This document shows, in pieces, positions 42,534 to 54,546 of a DNA stretch of 64,000 bases; position 1 is the first letter of the stretch, and every line of letters starts with the position of its first letter. Below the pieces are notes generated by a model. That model was not told where the DNA came from and ran no database searches. It was given only the letters and a program-made list of their open reading frames with translations. A program made the translations under genes and the position numbers. The stretch comes from Pseudonocardia xinjiangensis (GTDB lineage: Bacteria; Actinomycetota; Actinomycetes; Mycobacteriales; Pseudonocardiaceae), in NCBI RefSeq assembly GCF_012911925.1, contig NZ_JAAXKY010000004.1:1-64000 (forward strand). Direction: 5' to 3'.

Positions 42534-44831
<2,298 letters not shown>

Positions 44832-44873: not shown

Positions 44874-46001
44874 CTAAATACCCTGCGGCGCCGCGTCATG
44901 TCGTTCACGGTCTCCTCCACGAACCCCGTGCGGGCGCGGGACCAGCGGAAGGTCCCCGGCCCGCGAGTCCGCGTTGGCGGCCTCGACGGCCCGGGCGACC
45001 AGGTCGTGGTCGGGCGAGAGGTGGCAGACCGGGTCGGTACGGGCGGCGTCGCCGGTGAGCTGGAAGGCCTGGCAGCGGCACCCGCCGAAGTCCAGCTCCC
45101 GCCGGTCGCAGCTGCGGCAGGGATCCGGCATCCAGTCCGTTCCCCGGAACGCGGTCATCACCGGCGACTCGGCCCAGATCCGCTCCAGCGGGTCCTCGCG
45201 CACGTTGGCCCGCGGCAACGGCAGGGACTGGGCAGCAGGACAGGGCAGCACGTCGCCGTTCGGCGTCACGGTCAGCTGCCGGGAGGCCCAGCCGCCCATG
45301 CAGGGCTTCGGGTAGCGGCTGTAGTAGTCGGGGATGACGTAGATGACGTCCATGAGGTCGCGCAACCGGTCGCGGGCGGCCCGCACGACGAGCTCGGCCG
45401 CTTCGAGCTGCTCCCGGCTCGGCAGCAGCGCGTCGCGGTTGCGCCAGGCCCAGCCGTAGTACTGGGTGTTGGCCAGCTCCACCCGGTCGGCGCCCATCTC
45501 CTCGGCCAGCCGCAGCACGTCGGCGACGCGGTCGATGTTCTGCCGGTGCAGCACCACGTTCATGGTGAGCGGCCAGCCCAGCTCCTTGACCACGCCCATG
45601 GCCTCGATCTTGCGCCGGAAGGACGGGGTGCCGGCGATCCGGTCGGACACCGCCGGCTCGTCGGCCTGGATGCTGACCTGCACGTGGTCCAGGCCGGCGG
45701 CCAGCAGCTGCTCGGCCTTCTGCCTCGAGAGGCCGAGTGCGCTGGTCACGAGGTTGGAGTAGAGGCCCAGATCATGGGCGGTTGCCACGATCTCCACCAG
45801 GTCGCGCCGCAGCAGCGGTTCGCCGCCGGACAGGTGGCACTGCAGGACCCCCAGGTCACGGGCCTCCACCAGCACCCGTCGCCACTCGTCCGTGGTCAGC
45901 TCGTCGGAGTAGTCGGCCATGTTCAGCGGGTTGGAGCAGTACGCGCAGGCCAGCGGGCAGCGGTAGGTGAGCTCGGCCAGCAACCCGAAGGGGCTATCCA
46001 T
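44874..46001 (-). CDS. pqqE: PQQ synthesis radical SAM enzyme
   Basis: 375 aa radical SAM enzyme that forms the carbon-carbon bond between Glu and Tyr of PqqA. SAM [4Fe-4S] motif CPLACAYC with LTYR before it, the GGEPLL motif, and C-terminal SPASM cysteines (CMGGWASRQLTV, LPCPAAQ, CRSCDRRELDFGGCRC) for auxiliary clusters. Start ATG 46001 overlaps pqqD by 8 bases and has GGGGAGA upstream. Last gene of the pqq operon, followed 117 bases later by katG. Confidence 0.95.
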   Translation of the reverse strand: MDSPFGLLAELTYRCPLACAYCSNPLNMADYSDELTTDEWRRVLVEARDLGVLQCHLSGGEPLLRRDLVEIVATAHDLGLYSNLVTSALGLSRQKAEQLLAAGLDHVQVSIQADEPAVSDRIAGTPSFRRKIEAMGVVKELGWPLTMNVVLHRQNIDRVADVLRLAEEMGADRVELANTQYYGWAWRNRDALLPSREQLEAAELVVRAARDRLRDLMDVIYVIPDYYSRYPKPCMGGWASRQLTVTPNGDVLPCPAAQSLPLPRANVREDPLERIWAESPVMTAFRGTDWMPDPCRSCDRRELDFGGCRCQAFQLTGDAARTDPVCHLSPDHDLVARAVEAANADSRAGDLPLVPRPHGVRGGDRERHDAAPQGI

Positions 46002-46326
46002 CGGTGTTCTCCCCACTCCGGGGAAGCTCCACGCAGCGCCGGGCGACGAGCTGGGTCAGGTACCGCCGCACCTCCTCGTCGGGGACGGTCCGGTACCGCG
46101 CGCCCAGCTCGGCCACGATCTCGGCCACGGTGCGCCGCCCGTCGCACAGCTCGAGGATGCCGGCGCCGGTGGCGTTGAGCACCACCACCGTCTCGGGGAG
46201 CAGCAGGATGGGCTTCTGCCGGGTCGGGCAGAAACCGAGCCGGACGTGGCGCGCCAACCGCGGCCGGTCCGAGCCGGACACCCCGACGCGGGGTCGGGCC
46301 GCGGTTCCGGCTCGGGTCGGCTCCAT
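45994..46326 (-). CDS. pqqD: PQQ synthesis peptide chaperone
   Basis: 110 aa. Winged-helix peptide-binding (RRE) protein that presents PqqA to PqqE. Features are HVRLGFCPTRQKPILLLPETVVVLNATGAGILELCDG and TVAEIVAELGARY. The 25-residue N-terminal extension (Gly/Ala/Arg rich) is longer than in most PqqD proteins. ATG 46326, 5 bases after the pqqC stop. pqqD and pqqE are separate genes here rather than fused. Confidence 0.93.
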   Translation of the reverse strand: MEPTRAGTAARPRVGVSGSDRPRLARHVRLGFCPTRQKPILLLPETVVVLNATGAGILELCDGRRTVAEIVAELGARYRTVPDEEVRRYLTQLVARRCVELPRSGENTDG

Positions 46327-46331
46327 GGCGA

Positions 46332-47036
46332 TCACTCCGGGTAGGCCTGGTCGATGGCGTCCATCAGGCTCCACAGGACGTCGCACTTGAACGACAGCGC
46401 GTCGACGGCACGCGCCTGGGACTCGGCGGACAGGCAGTGCTCGGTGACCACCTCCATGGCGTGCTCGCAGTCGCGCGGGGCCTGCTCGAGGCGGGCGCGG
46501 AAGTAGGCGAGACCCTCGGGGTCGATCCACGGGTACCACCGCTCGAACGCGGCCAGCCGTTCCGCCATCAGGTCCGGGGCGAACAGCTCGGTGAGCGAGG
46601 ACGCCACCGCCTCTACCCACGGGCGGGTCCGGGTGAAGTTCACGTAGGCGTCGACCGCGAACCGCACCCCGGGGACCAGGTGCCGGTGGTCGCGGATCTC
46701 CTCGCGGGTCAGCCCGGCGGCCTCGCCAAGGCGTAGCCACGCCTCGATGCCACCTTCGCCTGCCGCGGTGCCGTCGTGGTCGACGATCCGGCGGATCCAG
46801 CGGCGGCGGACGTCGACGTCGGGGCAGTTGGAGAGGATCGCCGCGTCCTTGCGGGGGATGTTCTCCTGGTAGTAGAAGCGGTTGGCCACCCAGCCCTGGA
46901 GCTGCCGGGGGCTCAGCAGGCCGGCGTTCATCCGGACGTGGAACGGGTGCTGGTCGTGGTAGCGCCGCGAGTGCGCCCGCAGCGTCTCGACGAAGTCGTC
47001 GGCGCCGGCTCTCGTCGTTCCGGTCGTTGTCGTCAC
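46332..47036 (-). CDS. pqqC: PQQ synthase
   Basis: 234 aa cofactor-less oxidase performing the final ring closure and eight-electron oxidation to PQQ. Recognised by HPFHVRMNAGLLSPRQLQGWVANRFYYQ, NIPRKDAAILSNCPD, and HRHLVPGVRFAVDAYVNF, with conserved His, Tyr and Arg residues. GTG 47036 overlaps the pqqB stop by 4 bases. Length matches the family (about 230-250 aa). Confidence 0.95.
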   Translation of the reverse strand: MTTTTGTTRAGADDFVETLRAHSRRYHDQHPFHVRMNAGLLSPRQLQGWVANRFYYQENIPRKDAAILSNCPDVDVRRRWIRRIVDHDGTAAGEGGIEAWLRLGEAAGLTREEIRDHRHLVPGVRFAVDAYVNFTRTRPWVEAVASSLTELFAPDLMAERLAAFERWYPWIDPEGLAYFRARLEQAPRDCEHAMEVVTEHCLSAESQARAVDALSFKCDVLWSLMDAIDQAYPE

Positions 47037-47929
47037 GGGCCCTGTACCTCGATCTCGAGGCCGTCCATGGCCACCTGCATACCGCTGTCCTCCACAATGC
47101 GCCGCTCGGGCGCGTCCTCCAGCAGGATCGGGTTGGTGTTGTTCATGTGCACGAAGATCGTCCGCCGCACGCCGAGCGACGGGAGCTGCGCCAGGCTGCC
47201 GTCCGGGCCGTCGATGGGCAGGTGGCCCATCTCCCGGGACGTCTTGCCGGCCAGGCCGAGCCGCATCAGCTCGTCGTCGCGCCAGCAGGTGCCGTCGATC
47301 AGCAGGCAGTCGCAGCCCGCGATCTCCGATCGGAGCGCGGGCGTCAGGGACTGCACCCCCGGCAGGTACACCAGCGTGCCCCCGCTGCGGTCGTCGGTGA
47401 GCCGGTAGCCCACGACGCGGCCGTCGTCCACCCCGGTCCCGAAGCGGGCCCGCTTGGTGGTGGGCACGTCGAACGCCCGGCAGGACAGCCCGTCGGCCAG
47501 AACGAAGCCGGCGCCGGGGACCACCGTCCGCCACTCGACCGGGCAGTAGCGCTCGAGCGTGCGCAGGATCCCCGAGCCGTCGGACAGTGTCTTGTGCACC
47601 GCGGGGGTGGCGTACAGCCGCACGGCGCCGGCCTCGCGCAGCAGGAGCAGGCCCAGCGTGTGGTCCAGCTCGGCGTCGGTGAGCAGCACCCCCTCCAGCG
47701 GCGTCTCCCGCCGGCCGTGCGGGTGCAGGCCGGGGAAGGCCTCGATCTGGGCGCGGATGTCCGGCGAGGCGTTGACGACGAACCACCGGTTGCCGTCGGC
47801 GCTCACCGCGACCGACGACTGCGTGCGCGGTGGGGCGGCCCCGGAGCGGACGGCGGCACACACCGGGCAGCCACAGTTCCACTGCGGAGAACCACCCCCC
47901 GCCGCCGAGCCCAGCACCCGCAGCAACAC
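47033..47929 (-). CDS. pqqB: PQQ synthesis protein PqqB
   Basis: 298 aa metallo-beta-lactamase-fold protein, an iron-dependent hydroxylase acting on the Glu-Tyr intermediate. Start at GTG 47929 gives MLLRVLGSAAGGGSPQWNCG, exactly the family N-terminus, with GGAG 8 bases upstream; the ORF extension to 48043 is spurious. TDAELDHTLGLLLLRE is the family's altered metal motif, and the C-terminal VHMNNTNPIL is typical. Preceded by a hairpin separating it from pqqA. Confidence 0.94.
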   Translation of the reverse strand: MLLRVLGSAAGGGSPQWNCGCPVCAAVRSGAAPPRTQSSVAVSADGNRWFVVNASPDIRAQIEAFPGLHPHGRRETPLEGVLLTDAELDHTLGLLLLREAGAVRLYATPAVHKTLSDGSGILRTLERYCPVEWRTVVPGAGFVLADGLSCRAFDVPTTKRARFGTGVDDGRVVGYRLTDDRSGGTLVYLPGVQSLTPALRSEIAGCDCLLIDGTCWRDDELMRLGLAGKTSREMGHLPIDGPDGSLAQLPSLGVRRTIFVHMNNTNPILLEDAPERRIVEDSGMQVAMDGLEIEVQGP

Positions 47930-48017
47930 CCTCGGCACTCCATCTGTGGTCGGTCCGAGCCGGTGGAGGGGCGCCGCACCGAGGTCCGGCGCCGCCCCAC
48001 GTCCCGCCCAGGAGCGC

Positions 48018-48041
48018 GCTGAACGACCGGAGTCGTTCAGC
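48018..48041 (-). terminator. Hairpin between pqqA and pqqB
   Basis: Perfect 10-base arms GCTGAACGAC / GTCGTTCAGC with a 4-base loop, 7 bases downstream of the pqqA stop and 89 before pqqB. It probably attenuates transcription or stabilises the pqqA message, giving more precursor peptide than enzyme. That effect is known for pqqA in other bacteria and inferred here. Confidence 0.75.
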
Positions 48042-48047
48042 ACCCTC

Positions 48048-48143
48048 CTAGTCCTCCATCTGAGCGATGTACATGGTCACCTCGGGTGCGACGCCGATCT
48101 CCTCGAACTCCGGCGTCTCCCACACAGCGAGCTGAGACTCCAC
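48048..48143 (-). CDS. pqqA: PQQ precursor peptide PqqA
   Basis: 31-codon peptide, MESQLAVWETPEFEEIGVAP followed by EVTMYIAQMED. It contains the conserved E-x3-Y core (EVTMY) whose Glu and Tyr become PQQ. GTG start with AGGAGG 7 bases upstream. It lies between the PQQ dehydrogenase and pqqB on the same strand. It is too short for standard gene finding and easily missed. The C-terminal ED end is more acidic than the usual Arg-rich tail. Confidence 0.93.
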   Translation of the reverse strand: MESQLAVWETPEFEEIGVAPEVTMYIAQMED

Positions 48144-48189: not shown

Positions 48190-49893
48190 CTATGACGATT
48201 CCTCCGGCAGCGCGAAGGCGATCAAGGCGCTTCCGTGACCCGCACCGAGCATTCCGGGGAGGAATCCCTCGGCCCAGCCGCCCCAACCGACCGGCACGGC
48301 GACGTACTGCTTGCCGTCGACGCTGAAGGTGGTCGGACTGCTGTGGTGGCCGCTGCCGCACTGGAACTGCCACAACTGCTCCCCGGTGCTGGCGTCGAGC
48401 GCGACGAACTCACCGGAGGGCTTCCCGGCGAACACCAGGTCGCCGCCCGTGGCCAGCACGGACGCGCACATCGGAAGATCGTTGCGGTAGCGCCACTTCT
48501 CCTCGCCGTCGGCATCGAACGCGCTGATGGACCCCGCCATGTCATCGATGTCCACCTGAACGCCCGCGCCCCAGTACGGGATGCTTTCCTTGAACTCCCG
48601 GCGGCGGCGGGTGGCCGTTGCGCCGGTGTCCTGGACCGGGACGTAGAAGAGCTCGGTCCTCGGGCTGTAGGCCGCGTGCGTCCATTCCTTGGCGCCGGCC
48701 GGGCCCGGGTAGAAGTGGACCGGGTCCCCCTCCTTCTCGGGGTACACCTTCGCCGTCACCTGGCCGTCCCGCGTGATCGCTCCCCAGGTGATGCGGTCCA
48801 CGAAGGGGGTGATCTGGACCAGTTCGCCGTTCGTGCGATCGACGACGAAGAAGTAGCCGTTCTTGTCGAAGTGGCCGAGCAGCTTGCGCCCCTTCGACTC
48901 GAACAGGATGCACTCCGCGATGCTGTCGTAGTCCCACAGGTCGTGCGGGGTGCACTGGTAGTGCCACTGGATCTGGCCACTGTCCGCGTCGACGGCGACG
49001 ATGCTGTCGGTGTAGAGGTTGTCGCCCTCGCGGACCTCGCCGTCGAAGTCGGGCGCCGGGTTGCCGGTGCCCCAGTACAGCAGGTTGGTCTCCGGGTCGA
49101 AGGTGCCGGTGAGCCAGCAGTTCGCACCACCACGCGCCCAGGCCTCACCGTCGGCGGGCCAGGTCTCCGAGCCGGGCTCCCCGGGCTTGGGCACCATGTA
49201 GCAGCGCCAGCGGTGCTCCCCGCTCTCGACGTCGAACGCGTCGAGGTGACCGCGTACGCCGAACTCCCCGCCCGAACTCCCGACGATGACCATGTCCTTC
49301 ACGACCAGCGGCGCGCACGTGGCGCTCTCCCCGGCTCGCACGTCCCCGTAGGTCTTGTCCCAGACCCGCTTGCCGTTGGTGGCGTCGAGCGCGATCACGT
49401 GCGCGTTCGCCGTGACGAAGAAGACCTTGCCCTGCGCCACCGCGACGCCACGGTTCACGTTCCCGCAGCACAGTGAGACGTCGTAGGGGATCGCGTGCTT
49501 GTACCGCCAGATCTCCACGCCCGTCTTGGCGTCGAGGGCCCATACCCAGCCGTCCCAGCCGGCGACGAACATGACTCCGTCGACGACGATCGGGGCGGCC
49601 TCGAACGAGTAGGTCGACGCACCCGCGATCATGCCGGTCGTGCCGGCCTGGAAGATCCACGCGGGGCGGAGATGCTTGACGTTCTCCGTGTTGATCTGGT
49701 CCAGCGGGCTGAACCGCTGCCCGTTGTAGGTGCCGTAGTAGGTGAGCCAGTTGTGGGGCTCCGAGGCGGCGTTGCGGATGCGCTCGTAGGTGACGTCGGC
49801 GACCACCGGCGGCGCGACCTCCGCCCCTGGGGTCTTGTAGTTCAGCGTTGCCTGGTTGACTGCCTCACCCGCGTCGACGTATTCGACGGTCAT
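48190..49893 (-). CDS. PQQ-dependent alcohol dehydrogenase, lanthanide-type signature
   Basis: 567 aa beta-propeller quinoprotein of the methanol/ethanol dehydrogenase family. Visible are the vicinal Cys142-Cys143 pair (SLCCGN), Glu210 (GGEFGVRGH), Asn278 (GTGNPAPD) and Asp321. Asp321 is followed two residues later by Asp323 (HDLWDYDS), the extra acid that marks lanthanide-dependent enzymes (XoxF, PedH). Tryptophan-docking repeats are present. Unlike most family members there is no signal peptide: residues 1-30 (MTVEYVDAGEAVNQATLNYK...) are hydrophilic. No cytochrome domain. It heads the pqq operon with the cupredoxin-like gene. Confidence 0.92.
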   Translation of the reverse strand: MTVEYVDAGEAVNQATLNYKTPGAEVAPPVVADVTYERIRNAASEPHNWLTYYGTYNGQRFSPLDQINTENVKHLRPAWIFQAGTTGMIAGASTYSFEAAPIVVDGVMFVAGWDGWVWALDAKTGVEIWRYKHAIPYDVSLCCGNVNRGVAVAQGKVFFVTANAHVIALDATNGKRVWDKTYGDVRAGESATCAPLVVKDMVIVGSSGGEFGVRGHLDAFDVESGEHRWRCYMVPKPGEPGSETWPADGEAWARGGANCWLTGTFDPETNLLYWGTGNPAPDFDGEVREGDNLYTDSIVAVDADSGQIQWHYQCTPHDLWDYDSIAECILFESKGRKLLGHFDKNGYFFVVDRTNGELVQITPFVDRITWGAITRDGQVTAKVYPEKEGDPVHFYPGPAGAKEWTHAAYSPRTELFYVPVQDTGATATRRRREFKESIPYWGAGVQVDIDDMAGSISAFDADGEEKWRYRNDLPMCASVLATGGDLVFAGKPSGEFVALDASTGEQLWQFQCGSGHHSSPTTFSVDGKQYVAVPVGWGGWAEGFLPGMLGAGHGSALIAFALPEESS

Positions 49894-49906: not shown

Positions 49907-50371
49907 TTACGGTCGCGGCTGTTCGGGGCGGTCGAGGCGGGCCTCCGGCGGAACTTCCCCCAGCACGACGATCGCGCCGGTCAGTCCCCGTCCCTCGTCG
50001 TTGCCCGTGGGTGAGCTGAACCAGTAGTAGCCCGGGCCGTCAAGGTTGAGGGTCGCCCGTCCGCGTGAATGGTTCACCAACCAGATGAATTTCCTGTCGC
50101 CATTGTTCGGCAACAGCGCGCAGTGCGTGTTCAGGTCGTCGTTGATGAGCTCGAGCTCGAGATCACCTCCGTGTGGCAGGACCAGAACCGACGGATCCCA
50201 GCACAGTTCGTCAGGGTTGATCCGAATTGTGGCCTGCATGGTGCCATTGGCTCGCTCGGTTGCCTGGCCGACGTTTCCGGTGGCCAACAATCGACCGATG
50301 GTCGCCCTGTTCTGTTCTTTCAATCCGAGCTTGTCGAGCAGATCGGATCGATCCCCAGCAGTGGTTGTCAT
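49907..50371 (-). CDS. Cupredoxin-like PQQ-associated protein
   Basis: 154 aa. The central beta-sandwich ELCWDPSVLVLPHGGDLELELINDDLNTHCALLPNN and ATLNLDGPGYYWFSSPTGND look like a cupredoxin fold. However, the usual Cys-x-His-x-Met copper ligands at the end are missing, leaving only the His-Cys of NTHC. No signal peptide. The gene lies immediately upstream of the PQQ dehydrogenase (13 bases). It resembles the small PQQ-associated protein family (MSMEG_3727-like) of actinobacteria by recollection. Start ATG 50371 with GGAAGG upstream. Possibly an electron acceptor or maturation partner. Confidence 0.75.
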   Translation of the reverse strand: MTTTAGDRSDLLDKLGLKEQNRATIGRLLATGNVGQATERANGTMQATIRINPDELCWDPSVLVLPHGGDLELELINDDLNTHCALLPNNGDRKFIWLVNHSRGRATLNLDGPGYYWFSSPTGNDEGRGLTGAIVVLGEVPPEARLDRPEQPRP

Positions 50372-51046: not shown

Positions 51047-52231
51047 TTGTCCGTACGCGATCGCGGCCGTCTCGTCGTGCCGCCCCAGCCCCAGGACTTC
51101 CCTGGAAGTCCACTCAGTCGGGCGTGGCGGCAGCCGCTGATGCTGGGCCTGTTCCTCCCGCTGCAGACCGGCGGATGGTCGCAGTCGACGCTGCCGCGCG
51201 GCACCGACTGGACCTTCGCCTACAACCTGGAGCTCACGCGCCGGGCGGAGGAGTGGGGGTTCGACATCGCGTTCGGCCTCTCGCAGTGGCTGCCCATGGG
51301 CGGTTTCGGGGGAGAGACCGGGTACCGGGAGAACTTCCTCGACCCCTTCGTCTCCGCGGTCGCGCTGGCCTCGGCCACCCGGTCGATCCTGCTCCTGGGC
51401 ACCGTGCACGTCCTCTACGGCCCGTGGCACCCGCTGCATCTGGCCAAGTTCCTCGCCACCGCCGACCACATCTCCGGCGGCCGCTTCGGGGCCAACATCG
51501 TCACCGGGTACGCGGGCAACGAACCGGCCATGTTCGGCATGACCCGTCCCGAGCACGACAAGCGTTACGCCATGGCCGACGAGTTCGCCGCCATCTGCGA
51601 GGACCTGTGGGCCGGTGCCGACAACCTGACCTTCCACGGTGAGCACTGGTCACTGGAGGAGGCCTACGTGTCTCCGCGGCCCGCGTTCGGCCGGCCGATC
51701 CTGGTGTCGGCGAGTGGCTCGCCCGCCGGGTTCTCCTACGCGGCAAAGCACTCCGACATCGTCTTCGTCTCGAGCCCGGCCGGTGAGGACTTCGACACGG
51801 CGATCGCCGCGATGCCCGCCCATGTCCGGAGCGTGAAGGACGCGGCACGGGCCGAGGGCCGTGAGGTCCGGGTCGTGATCAACCCGACCATCGTCACCGC
51901 ACCCACCCGGGACGCCGCCGAGGCCCGGTACCGGGCCATCTCCGACCACGCGGATCTCGAGTCGATCCGGAACTTCACCGGGCGCCATGCCGGGGGCGAC
52001 AGCCGGTCCTGGCTGGAGCACAGCGCGCGGGGCCGCGCGGTCGGGGGCCACCTGCACGTGGTGGGCTCGCCAGCGGATGTGGCCGACAAGCTGGCCCGGC
52101 TGCACGAGTCGGGGATCGACGGGGTCCAGATCACCTTCTACGACTACGTGCCCGAGCTGGAGTTCTTCGGCCAGGAGGTGCTCCCCCTGCTGGAGAAGGC
52201 CGGGCTGCGGGTGCCCCGAGAGGCACCCTGA
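51047..52231 (+). CDS. LLM-class flavin-dependent monooxygenase
   Basis: 394 aa luciferase-like monooxygenase resembling FMNH2-dependent sulfone/alkane-sulfonate and pyrimidine-type enzymes. Features are LGLFLPLQTGGWSQSTLPRG, WGFDIAFGLSQWLPMGGFGG, HISGGRFGANIVTGYAGNE and ILVSASGSPAGFSYAAKHSD. TTG start at 51047 chosen for GCAGGAG 7 bases upstream; the first 35 residues before LMLGLFLP may be an extension, with ATG 51139 as an alternative start. Divergent from the PQQ operon, convergent with the next LLM gene. Confidence 0.83.
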   Translation: MSVRDRGRLVVPPQPQDFPGSPLSRAWRQPLMLGLFLPLQTGGWSQSTLPRGTDWTFAYNLELTRRAEEWGFDIAFGLSQWLPMGGFGGETGYRENFLDPFVSAVALASATRSILLLGTVHVLYGPWHPLHLAKFLATADHISGGRFGANIVTGYAGNEPAMFGMTRPEHDKRYAMADEFAAICEDLWAGADNLTFHGEHWSLEEAYVSPRPAFGRPILVSASGSPAGFSYAAKHSDIVFVSSPAGEDFDTAIAAMPAHVRSVKDAARAEGREVRVVINPTIVTAPTRDAAEARYRAISDHADLESIRNFTGRHAGGDSRSWLEHSARGRAVGGHLHVVGSPADVADKLARLHESGIDGVQITFYDYVPELEFFGQEVLPLLEKAGLRVPREAP

Positions 52232-52236
52232 CCCGG

Positions 52237-53235
52237 TCAGCCGGTGGCCTCCGCCAGCCGCGGCCCGATGATCTTGGCGAACGCCTCGACGTCGGTCTGC
52301 GGCAGGTCGTAACCGCTCTCGGCGGTGTGCGACGGGAAGAAGAACACCCTGCGCACGCCGGACTCCTCGTGTGCGCGCAGCAGCCGGTCCGCGCAGTACT
52401 CCGGCGGCCCGAACAGCCCGAACGCCTCGGACACCCGCTCGGCGAGCTGCGGGGAGAGCGAGCCGGGCTCGTGGTCCTCGGGGATGTCGATCCCCGCCGC
52501 GCGCAACCAGCGCAGGTTCGCCACGCTCGGGTAGTTCAGGAACGGCTGCCCGGGCCGGAAGTACCGGCGCGGCCACTCCCGGGCGGTCTCGAAGTCCTCG
52601 ATCGCCGTGGGCACGATGAAGATCTCCTCCACCGACTCGACCGGACGTCCGGCCCGGGCCGCGCCCGCGCGCACGTGCTGCCGGGCCGCCTCGATCCCGT
52701 CGGGGTGCAGGCCGACCATCATCACCACCCCGTCGGCCACCTCCCCGGCGAGCTCCAGCATCTTCGGGCCAGCGGCCAGGATGAAGATCTTCGGCGCGGG
52801 CGCCGCCACGTTGTTCATGCGCAGCTCCTGGCCGTCCACCACGGCGGGGCGCCCGGCCAGCAGCTGCCGCAGAGCGGTCACCACCTCGCCGAGCTGCTGG
52901 CGCCGGGCCTGCGGCTTGCCCGCCTTCTCGACGGACAGGAACCCGGGCGCGAGGGTCAGCAGGATCCGGCCCGGCGCGATCTCCGCGAGCGAGTTGGCGG
53001 TCGCGCCCAGCACGAGCGGGTGCCGGGTGACCGGGTTGGTGGTGGCCGGGTACAGCGTCAGCCGGTGGGTGGCGGCGGCAGCCAGCGTGAGCGCCACGTA
53101 GACGTCGCGGCCCGAGTGGTGGTGGTCGTGCACACCGACGCCGTGGAAGCCGGCGTCCTCGCAGGACCGGATGAAGTCCATCAGCTCCGGCAGCGGGCGG
53201 CCGACCGGAACGCGGATGTCGACCTCGATTGCCAT
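52237..53235 (-). CDS. LLM-class oxidoreductase (F420-type)
   Basis: 332 aa TIM-barrel oxidoreductase: FIRSCEDAGFHGVGVHDHHH, HRLTLYPATTNPVTRHPLVLGATANSLAEIAPGRILLTLAPG, and KIFILAAGPKMLELAGEVADGVVMMVG are characteristic of the F420-dependent group. C-terminal EYCADRLLRAHEESGVRRVFFFP. ATG at 53235. It is the last gene of the minus-strand GntR operon (57 bases after the transporter) and probably oxidises or reduces that pathway's substrate. Confidence 0.87.
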   Translation of the reverse strand: MAIEVDIRVPVGRPLPELMDFIRSCEDAGFHGVGVHDHHHSGRDVYVALTLAAAATHRLTLYPATTNPVTRHPLVLGATANSLAEIAPGRILLTLAPGFLSVEKAGKPQARRQQLGEVVTALRQLLAGRPAVVDGQELRMNNVAAPAPKIFILAAGPKMLELAGEVADGVVMMVGLHPDGIEAARQHVRAGAARAGRPVESVEEIFIVPTAIEDFETAREWPRRYFRPGQPFLNYPSVANLRWLRAAGIDIPEDHEPGSLSPQLAERVSEAFGLFGPPEYCADRLLRAHEESGVRRVFFFPSHTAESGYDLPQTDVEAFAKIIGPRLAEATG

Positions 53236-53292: not shown

Positions 53293-54546
53293 TCAGCCGG
53301 GCAGTGGATCGCCCTTGGTCTCGGGGAGGAAGAACACCGCGATCATGCCGATCAGGTAGATCGGCGCGAAGATCGCCGCGGCACGGCCGAAGCCGCCGAG
53401 TGCCGTGGCGAGGGTGCCGGTCAGCACCGCACCCACCATTGCGATGTAGCGCGAGCCGCTGAACACCATGCTGATCGCCGTCGCGCGGTGCGCGGTGGAG
53501 AACAGCTCGGGGGTGTGCACGGTGTACCAGCTGTAGACGCCGCCGGTGAGGAAGCCCGCCACCAGCTGCAGCCACGTCGCGGCCACGGCGCCGTGCACGG
53601 CGAGGAACACGATCGGCACGATCACCAGGCAGCCCACGAAGTAGGCCTGGATCGTGGCCTTGCGGCCCCAGGACTCCGCGAGGAAGCCGAAGGCGATGCA
53701 GCCGGCGATCTCGCCCGCGTTGTAGAGCGCCGCCGCCCAGCCGGTGAAGAACGCCACCCGGCCCGGGTCGTGCACGAGGCCTCCCACGAAGCTCGGGAGG
53801 TACGAGCTCACGGCCCACCAGCCGCCGGTGATCGCGATCGACACCACGAGCGCGCCCAGGAAGTTGCGCCGCACGCCGGGCCGGAGCAGGTCGGCGATCG
53901 AGGTGGCCGAACGCCGGGTGGCCGACCAGAGCGCCGACTCCGGGATGTGCTTGCGGACCAGCAGCACGAGCAGCAGCGGCAGGATGCCGAAGAGGTACAT
54001 CCAGCGCCACGACAGCTGCAGCGTCGAGCCGAGCAGCACCCACAGCGCCGACACCAGCAACCCGCCGAGCGAGAAGCCGCTCTGCAGCAGGCCCGCACCC
54101 TTGGCGCGCCACCGCTGCGGCCACACCTCCTGCAGCAGCGAGGTGCCCACGCCCCACTCGGCCCCGATGCCGACGCCGGTGAGGAACCGGGCGATGCCGA
54201 AGATCCACCAGTTGCCGGCCAGCGCGGACAGCGCGGTGAACACGCTGTAGACCACCACCGCGACGATCATGGTGCGGCGGCGGCCGAGGCGGTCGCCGAC
54301 CATCCCGCCGAGGATCCCGCCGGTGGCCCACCCCGCGAGCGTGATCGCCACCAGGTAGCCCTGGTAGGCGGGGAGGTTGTGCAGCTGGTCGACCGGCAGC
54401 AGCTCGGTGAGCGTGGGCCGGGCGGTGATCAGCAGGACGAACGTGTCGTAGCCGTCGGCCACCCAGAACACCAGGGTGAGCGCGAGGATGCCCCACGCGC
54501 GGCGGTCGAGCCTGGTCGCCGGCTCCGCGAGCAACGGTGCGGTCAT
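53293..54546 (-). CDS. MFS transporter
   Basis: 417 aa with 12 membrane segments. The loop 2-3 motif is GGMVGDRLGRRRTMIVAVV and there is an acid residue in helix 1 (VADGYDTFVL), both typical of aromatic-acid/metabolite:H+ symporters (AAHS). It likely imports the substrate of this operon. ATG 54546 is one base from the stop of the upstream decarboxylase-like gene, so expression is coupled. Confidence 0.9.
   Translation of the reverse strand: MTAPLLAEPATRLDRRAWGILALTLVFWVADGYDTFVLLITARPTLTELLPVDQLHNLPAYQGYLVAITLAGWATGGILGGMVGDRLGRRRTMIVAVVVYSVFTALSALAGNWWIFGIARFLTGVGIGAEWGVGTSLLQEVWPQRWRAKGAGLLQSGFSLGGLLVSALWVLLGSTLQLSWRWMYLFGILPLLLVLLVRKHIPESALWSATRRSATSIADLLRPGVRRNFLGALVVSIAITGGWWAVSSYLPSFVGGLVHDPGRVAFFTGWAAALYNAGEIAGCIAFGFLAESWGRKATIQAYFVGCLVIVPIVFLAVHGAVAATWLQLVAGFLTGGVYSWYTVHTPELFSTAHRATAISMVFSGSRYIAMVGAVLTGTLATALGGFGRAAAIFAPIYLIGMIAVFFLPETKGDPLPG

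Follow-up and report, generated by a model that had tools for sequence, protein, structure and literature searches.

Gene content of the cassette and absence of signal peptides

The analysed stretch of DNA of the soil actinobacterium Pseudonocardia xinjiangensis, 64,000 nucleotides in length and referred to here as the window, carries a cassette whose genes lie on one strand in the order small gene, alcohol dehydrogenase (ADH) gene, pqqA, pqqB, pqqC, pqqD, pqqE, katG. The PQQ-dependent ADH (48190..49893, minus strand, as are all genes of the cassette) is a protein of 567 residues with an ATG start, and belongs to the TIGR03075 family of PQQ-dependent methanol/ethanol dehydrogenases, scoring 635.1 bits in a profile search against a cut-off of 480.05. 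The small gene (49907..50371) encodes a PF23509/TIGR04339 "MSMEG_3727 PQQ-associated" protein, which exceeds both family cut-offs in profile searches (283 bits against 75, and 274 bits against 27). The PQQ precursor peptide gene pqqA (48048..48143) was recognized by eye, with its GTG start picked by the ribosome-binding site, and a similar peptide is found beside the relatives. It is followed by pqqB (47033..48043; TIGR02108, 389 bits), by pqqC (46332..47057; TIGR02111, 320 bits) and pqqD (45994..46326; TIGR03859, 71 bits), both with approximate starts, and by the radical SAM gene pqqE (44874..46016; TIGR02109, 517 bits). The catalase-peroxidase gene katG (42534..44798), whose product has no signal peptide, lies 75 bases downstream of pqqE. 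Adjoining the cassette are three genes, at 51146-52231 (+), 52237-53235 (-) and 53293-54546 (-), which code for two oxidoreductases of the luciferase-like (LLM) kind and one MFS transporter; these fall outside the neighbour clusters common to many relatives.

Signal peptides were scored with a liberal rule of our own, which seeks an uncharged 12-residue stretch with a mean Kyte-Doolittle value of at least 1.8 near the N-terminus, and which considers every ATG as well as any start with a ribosome-site match. The sequence-only reading had seen no signal peptide on the ADH, and this holds when every possible start is scored. The motif AAGGAG lies immediately 5' of the ATG, the single later candidate start is residue 30, which is internal to the protein, and no hydrophobic signal segment was found at either candidate start under this rule. 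The ADH thus lacks the type of signal peptide by which enzymes such as XoxF and PedH reach the periplasm. That reading had also named a true upstream start carrying a signal as the finding that would overturn it. As far as the sequence allows, such a start is ruled out, and we consider an annotation artefact of this kind exceedingly improbable: the 29 open codons 5' of the ATG contain no ATG, GTG or TTG, no hydrophobic segment is present, and the close relatives, the closest of which are Pseudonocardia proteins at 92% identity by search and tree, look the same.

The small protein is likewise without a signal from all three of its candidate starts, as had been supposed. Its description as cupredoxin-like stands with respect to the fold, which is supported by a predicted model (pLDDT 82) and by fold-search matches, while a sequence search against solved structures returned three chance-level matches only. 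The description does not extend to the metal site. Of the type-1 copper ligands, H83 is kept, and S120, D125 and L130 replace the other three. With three of four ligands absent, the window protein is unlikely to be a blue-copper protein, and a role as blue-copper electron acceptor was rejected for it.

The whole genome contains two TIGR03075 ADHs by profile search, and a second complete cassette is present on contig C133 (genome G000; loci L161 and L208), comprising a PF23509 gene, an ADH gene and pqqA-E. Its PF23509 and ADH genes are 68% and 72% identical, respectively, to those in the window. PF23509 scored over its cut-off in 13 of 396 genomes of the phylum (two of these at 28-30 bits) and in 40 of 150 genomes of the window's family, its own genome being included in both counts. 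The Gram-negative surveys gave 1/148, 3/200, 1/199 and 1/194, each including the starting genome; the three matches in the second survey were the starting genome, a new member (G732) and a weak 27-bit match. Survey matches below about 35 bits were set aside as other proteins on score rather than by individual checks. Few genomes in the Gram-negative groups surveyed carry PF23509. A plasmid search for the small protein returned one record, from a Streptomyces.

Two sister clades of dehydrogenase and small-protein pairs

A tree of the ADH family including XoxF, MxaF and PedH, as the sequence-only reading had proposed, was built by maximum likelihood from 75 proteins with a midpoint root. It uses 18 of the 38 outgroup rows and omits L045 and L170, which are partial, and L167, a near-copy of L166. 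An actinobacterial clade of 44 rows, HR26 among them, is recovered with support of 100/98 and is joined at 100/100 to a Gram-negative sister clade of seven rows (100/97), the bootstrap value being 100% for each of the two. XoxF, MxaF, PedH, ExaA and a quinohemoprotein fall outside the two sister clades, and a branch supported at 100/99 parts six references from the window clade, although several of the reference branches are long. The residues likened by that reading to lanthanide enzymes are indeed present. The window ADH lies inside neither the XoxF nor the PedH clade.

The Gram-negative members, seven in all, are L038 (Nitrospira moscoviensis), L039, L040, L041, L042, L043 and L162. They span Nitrospira, Longimicrobiaceae and Proteobacteria, and combine a mostly lipoprotein-type ADH with a cupredoxin bearing type-1 copper ligands; we know of no characterised example of such a pair. 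At one of these loci (L039:4763-6487, Proteobacteria bacterium 005FR1), a further PQQ-ADH-like gene with its own signal peptide was seen by eye shortly upstream of the pair.

All seven Gram-negative ADHs and all seven accompanying small proteins are signal-positive, and a lipobox, by a pattern of our own, is present in six of the ADHs and in every small protein. Signals are almost absent from the actinobacterial clade: among 49 ADHs L034 is the single positive, among 48 small proteins L028 is, and both lack a lipobox. The 49 include L031, which is cut by a contig edge, is uninformative here and stays out of the ligand, neighbour and tree counts; L175, a repeat of the L029 record, is within both signal counts and was excluded afterwards. 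The outgroup ADHs, which served as a sensitivity control, are signal-positive in 36 of 38 cases; in six of these, the signal belongs to a longer protein whose start lies about 240-270 residues further upstream. A second draw, consisting of 29 loci for the best matches of a search in the window's family (five identical to named loci), contained no signal in 29 small proteins or 28 ADHs; 24 of the former and 23 of the latter are new. Since the sister clade and nearly all outgroups carry signals, the loss of the signal is the derived state. Furthermore, because almost every relative in the clade has the same residues and is likewise without signals, the observation made in the window exceeds chance.

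The basal actinobacterial copy, L034, has intermediate features. Its small protein, which reads VVLWNYLRLLRPSVLKQ, aligns with the Nitrospira sequence CDYVRLLRPSVLKQ from the lipid-bearing cysteine on, with a Trp instead of that cysteine and three residues before it. This protein has no signal and its copper ligands are already gone, and the L034 ADH retains a hydrophobic N-terminus. Given that the deepest member of the clade still has such an N-terminus on its ADH, the signals were possibly lost stepwise.

The copper ligands follow the same division. The set HCHM occurs in 7/7 Gram-negative copies and, among 54 copies overall, is complete in these seven only; the 47 actinobacterial copies read HSDL, HSDM or HSNL. 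The Cys and the second His are replaced in 47/47 of the latter and the Met in 45/47, and the second draw has Ser and Asp at the corresponding positions in 29/29 small proteins, 24 being new. The altered site is itself conserved, with frequencies among the 47 copies of 1.00 for S120, 0.98 for D125 and E126, and 1.00 for N124 and G127. The small gene lies directly upstream of the ADH gene in 41 of 42 loci at an identity of at least 57%, the exception, L031, beginning at a contig edge, and it is absent from 38/38 outgroup loci, 37 of which have at least 700 bases of upstream sequence.

The two clades differ further in a pair of ADH cysteines. At positions 395 and 424 of the window protein, both cysteines are present in 7/7 Gram-negative ADHs, as in XoxF and MxaF, versus 0/45 readable actinobacterial ADHs, L045 and L170 being unreadable there. 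The overall cysteine content runs in the opposite direction, with means of 8.16 (n=44) in the actinobacterial clade, 4.0 (n=7) in the Gram-negative clade and 2.61 (n=38) in the outgroup; the maximum of 15 comes from L048, whose ADH was read as 698 residues. A high cysteine count was considered as proof of a reducing compartment and downgraded. Periplasmic XoxF (4MAE) has seven cysteines, and in a control on flanking genes, exported-like and cytosol-like products had similar cysteine contents (12 versus 139 proteins, p = 0.40). As this control showed no separation, the rise in ADH cysteines is given little weight. Conversely, the vicinal cysteines that form a disulfide in periplasmic relatives are kept as C142-C143 in 47/47 ADHs of the actinobacterial clade, and it is chiefly this retention that fits a reducing compartment poorly.

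Metal site, gene neighbours and a proposed history of the pair

Besides C142-C143, the window ADH has E210, N278, D321 and D323. By their roles in the TIGR03075 family, D321 is the catalytic aspartate, E210 and N278 are metal-binding residues, and the two cysteines form the vicinal pair; in the actinobacterial clade, C142, C143, E210 and N278 never vary among the 47 copies. The codons for D321-Y322-D323 (48925..48933, minus strand) encode a lanthanide-type signature by comparison with PedH, XoxF, ExaA and MxaF, the corresponding motifs being WDFD and WDYD in PedH and XoxF (6DAM), and WDFS and WDYA in ExaA and MxaF. Passages of one study tie the aspartate at this site to lanthanide use in PedH and report a serine in PedE (PMC5487730). 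The DYD signature to which the sequence-only reading had drawn attention is confirmed, and D323 proves invariant in the clade: both aspartates are present in 46/46 readable copies (L170 being unreadable at these positions), and all 28 ADHs from the second draw, including 23 new ones, have WDYD. The residue equivalent to D323 varies among the seven Gram-negative sisters (D in three, S in three and E in one), so that the position tolerates change. The signature suggests a lanthanide as the metal of the actinobacterial ADH. The motif is an imperfect predictor, as WDMD also occurs in membrane glucose dehydrogenases, whose metal is Mg or Ca.

Neighbouring genes were counted at 46 actinobacterial-clade loci; among these are the near-copies L166 and L167, a genome represented by both of its cassettes (the window and L161), and some contigs with little flanking sequence. 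A katG gene adjoins the cassette at 22 of the 46 loci, on the upstream side in 18 and on the downstream side in the other four (the window, L047, L008 and L018). Because all 22 fall inside a single 23-row clade of the tree, with L017 as the exception, a single recruitment of katG is probable, followed by a change of place without detachment from the cassette. By our rule, no signal is present on any of the 22 KatG proteins of the cluster, the query copy included.

Several other neighbours were noted. A regulator lies near the cassette at 21/46 loci (for example, L046:3718-5160), often beside katG; one member tested has a C-terminal LytTR domain. An MntP-family gene occurs at 16/46 loci and an Na/Ca-exchanger gene at 5/46, never at the same locus (one member of each tested; examples are L036:13041-13580 (-) and L044:12719-13906 (+)), and the one MntP match in the window's own genome is on contig C133, some 2.7 kb past pqqE of the second cassette. 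In a passage of one study, NRAMP transporters next to XoxF3 were interpreted as possible lanthanide transporters (PMC10875860). A match to the ribonucleotide-reductase small-chain family was seen near the cassette at three loci (L048:12827-13588, L026 and L161). As for a c-type cytochrome partner, the motif CXXCH was found in two of the 593 ORFs kept after filtering at the 46 loci, neither of them cytochrome-like, and in none of the listed ORFs of five of the seven Gram-negative loci. Mycofactocin was also considered as an electron carrier and dropped; the maturase is encoded in the genome, and nothing ties mycofactocin to the cassette.

The interpretation that we prefer, with a probability of about 0.55, is that an exported, mostly lipoprotein-anchored ADH/blue-copper pair was relocated into the cytoplasm, losing its copper and keeping a lanthanide-type site. 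The ancestral ADH would have handed electrons to a blue-copper lipoprotein encoded next to it. Both genes would have lost their signals on the stem of the actinobacterial clade, where the copper ligands of the small protein and the cysteine pair of the ADH would also have gone. A cytoplasmic location is suggested by the coincidence of signal losses in two genes at once with the losses of the copper ligands and of the cysteine pair. Both proteins would now stay in the cytoplasm, their genes usually lying next to those for PQQ biosynthesis, and PQQ would be both made and inserted in that compartment. The ADH would bind a lanthanide through E210, N278, D321 and D323, and oxidise an alcohol, most likely a primary one. 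As electron transfer by copper is no longer possible, the small protein has most likely been kept as a structural subunit or as a handler of metal or PQQ. PQQH2 would have to be re-oxidised by another route, and where katG is present, as in the subclade of the window, the simplest guess is that O2 is the acceptor and KatG removes the peroxide. The sequence-only reading had judged a cytoplasmic or non-classically exported lanthanide quinoprotein to be unusual; the absence of signals extends across nearly the whole clade, and the metal, by its signature, and the location are probable rather than observed.

A relocated pair need not use a lanthanide. The metal of a cytoplasmic ADH could instead be divalent (Mg, Ca or Mn), with D323 merely a feature of the lineage. 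We know of no lanthanide uptake protein in Actinobacteria, and the variation among D, S and E in the Gram-negative sisters and the frequency of MntP-family (putative Mn efflux) and Na/Ca-exchanger genes near the cassette are in keeping with this explanation. Against it stand the very low concentration of free calcium in the cytoplasm and the retention of D323 in every readable copy of the clade and throughout the second draw, at the site that passages of PMC5487730 connect with lanthanide use in PedH. On balance, a divalent metal has a limited but real chance of being correct. The location could also be misjudged, if both proteins leave the cell by a route that requires no N-terminal signal and act outside the membrane. 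All characterised bacterial relatives known to us are periplasmic, and the vicinal cysteines are kept in every copy; yet signals were lost from both genes, the possible carrier KatG is signal-less too, and an external pair would not be expected to lose its copper ligands and the 395/424 cysteines, all of which makes such export rather improbable.

A further question is whether the small protein still has a function. That it is a decayed cupredoxin, leaving the ADH to act alone, might be suspected from the loss of three of four copper ligands in most copies; however, the gene is retained beside the ADH at nearly all loci and the altered site is itself conserved, so that we regard decay as very unlikely. 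At the other extreme, the relocated pair could form a cytoplasmic lanthanide-PQQ alcohol oxidase working with KatG, for which the alcohol oxidase/catalase pair is the proposed analogue acting inside the cell, with the small partner, once a blue-copper protein, as a handler of a hard metal (lanthanide or calcium) and the MntP and Na/Ca-exchanger genes managing the ion. The residues concerned would be N124-D125-E126, conserved in the old copper pocket, and D78, D79 and H83, conserved in the same domain. This elaboration is speculative, and we hold it to be doubtful as a whole.

Comparison with known systems

Were the relocation reading true, the cytoplasm of Actinobacteria would have to take up lanthanides or deal with them internally, and a PQQ enzyme would be able to hand its electrons to an acceptor that is neither a periplasmic cytochrome nor a copper protein. 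The Gram-negative and actinobacterial pairs would then constitute a natural before/after experiment, with copper ligands versus none, anchored versus free proteins, and D, S or E versus D only at the metal site. Alcohol dehydrogenases with PQQ, like enzymes that use lanthanides, are known from the periplasm. A search of an open-access literature library found no account of a PQQ alcohol dehydrogenase located in the cytoplasm, nor of a PF23509 protein without copper. According to a passage of one open-access article, the absence of XoxF from its Gram-positive MAGs was unsurprising, XoxF being periplasmic (PMC10875860).

The cassette itself is already published. Passages on Mycobacterium smegmatis describe MSMEG_3721-3727 as comprising one ADH (MSMEG_3726) together with PQQ genes (PMC3023750, PMC6529628). 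Going by these descriptions, this is a gene set of the same kind, a lone TIGR03075 ADH with PQQ genes, and the window small protein matches the family models named after MSMEG_3727. Signal peptides, copper ligands, metal and location do not come up in those passages. What is new here is the comparative context, in which two sister clades appear, from their sequences, to differ in signals, copper ligands and a cysteine pair.

Among characterised proteins, auracyanin and other single-domain cupredoxins differ from the small proteins of the actinobacterial clade in having the Cys/His/Met copper ligands. The best match of the window ADH among solved structures, at 388 bits, is PedH (6ZCV/6ZCW), the lanthanide-dependent ethanol dehydrogenase of Pseudomonas putida. 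The two enzymes have the same metal residues with a DxD motif; PedH differs in being periplasmic and in branching apart from the window clade, and we know of no PF23509 partner for it. XoxF (6DAM, 6OC5, 4MAE) similarly has the DYD/DFD motif and the vicinal cysteines in common with the window ADH, and the second cysteine pair of XoxF and MxaF is common to the Gram-negative sisters. Unlike the window ADH as we interpret it, XoxF is found in the periplasm, clusters with MxaF away from the window clade, and is partnered by the cytochrome XoxG rather than by a cupredoxin.
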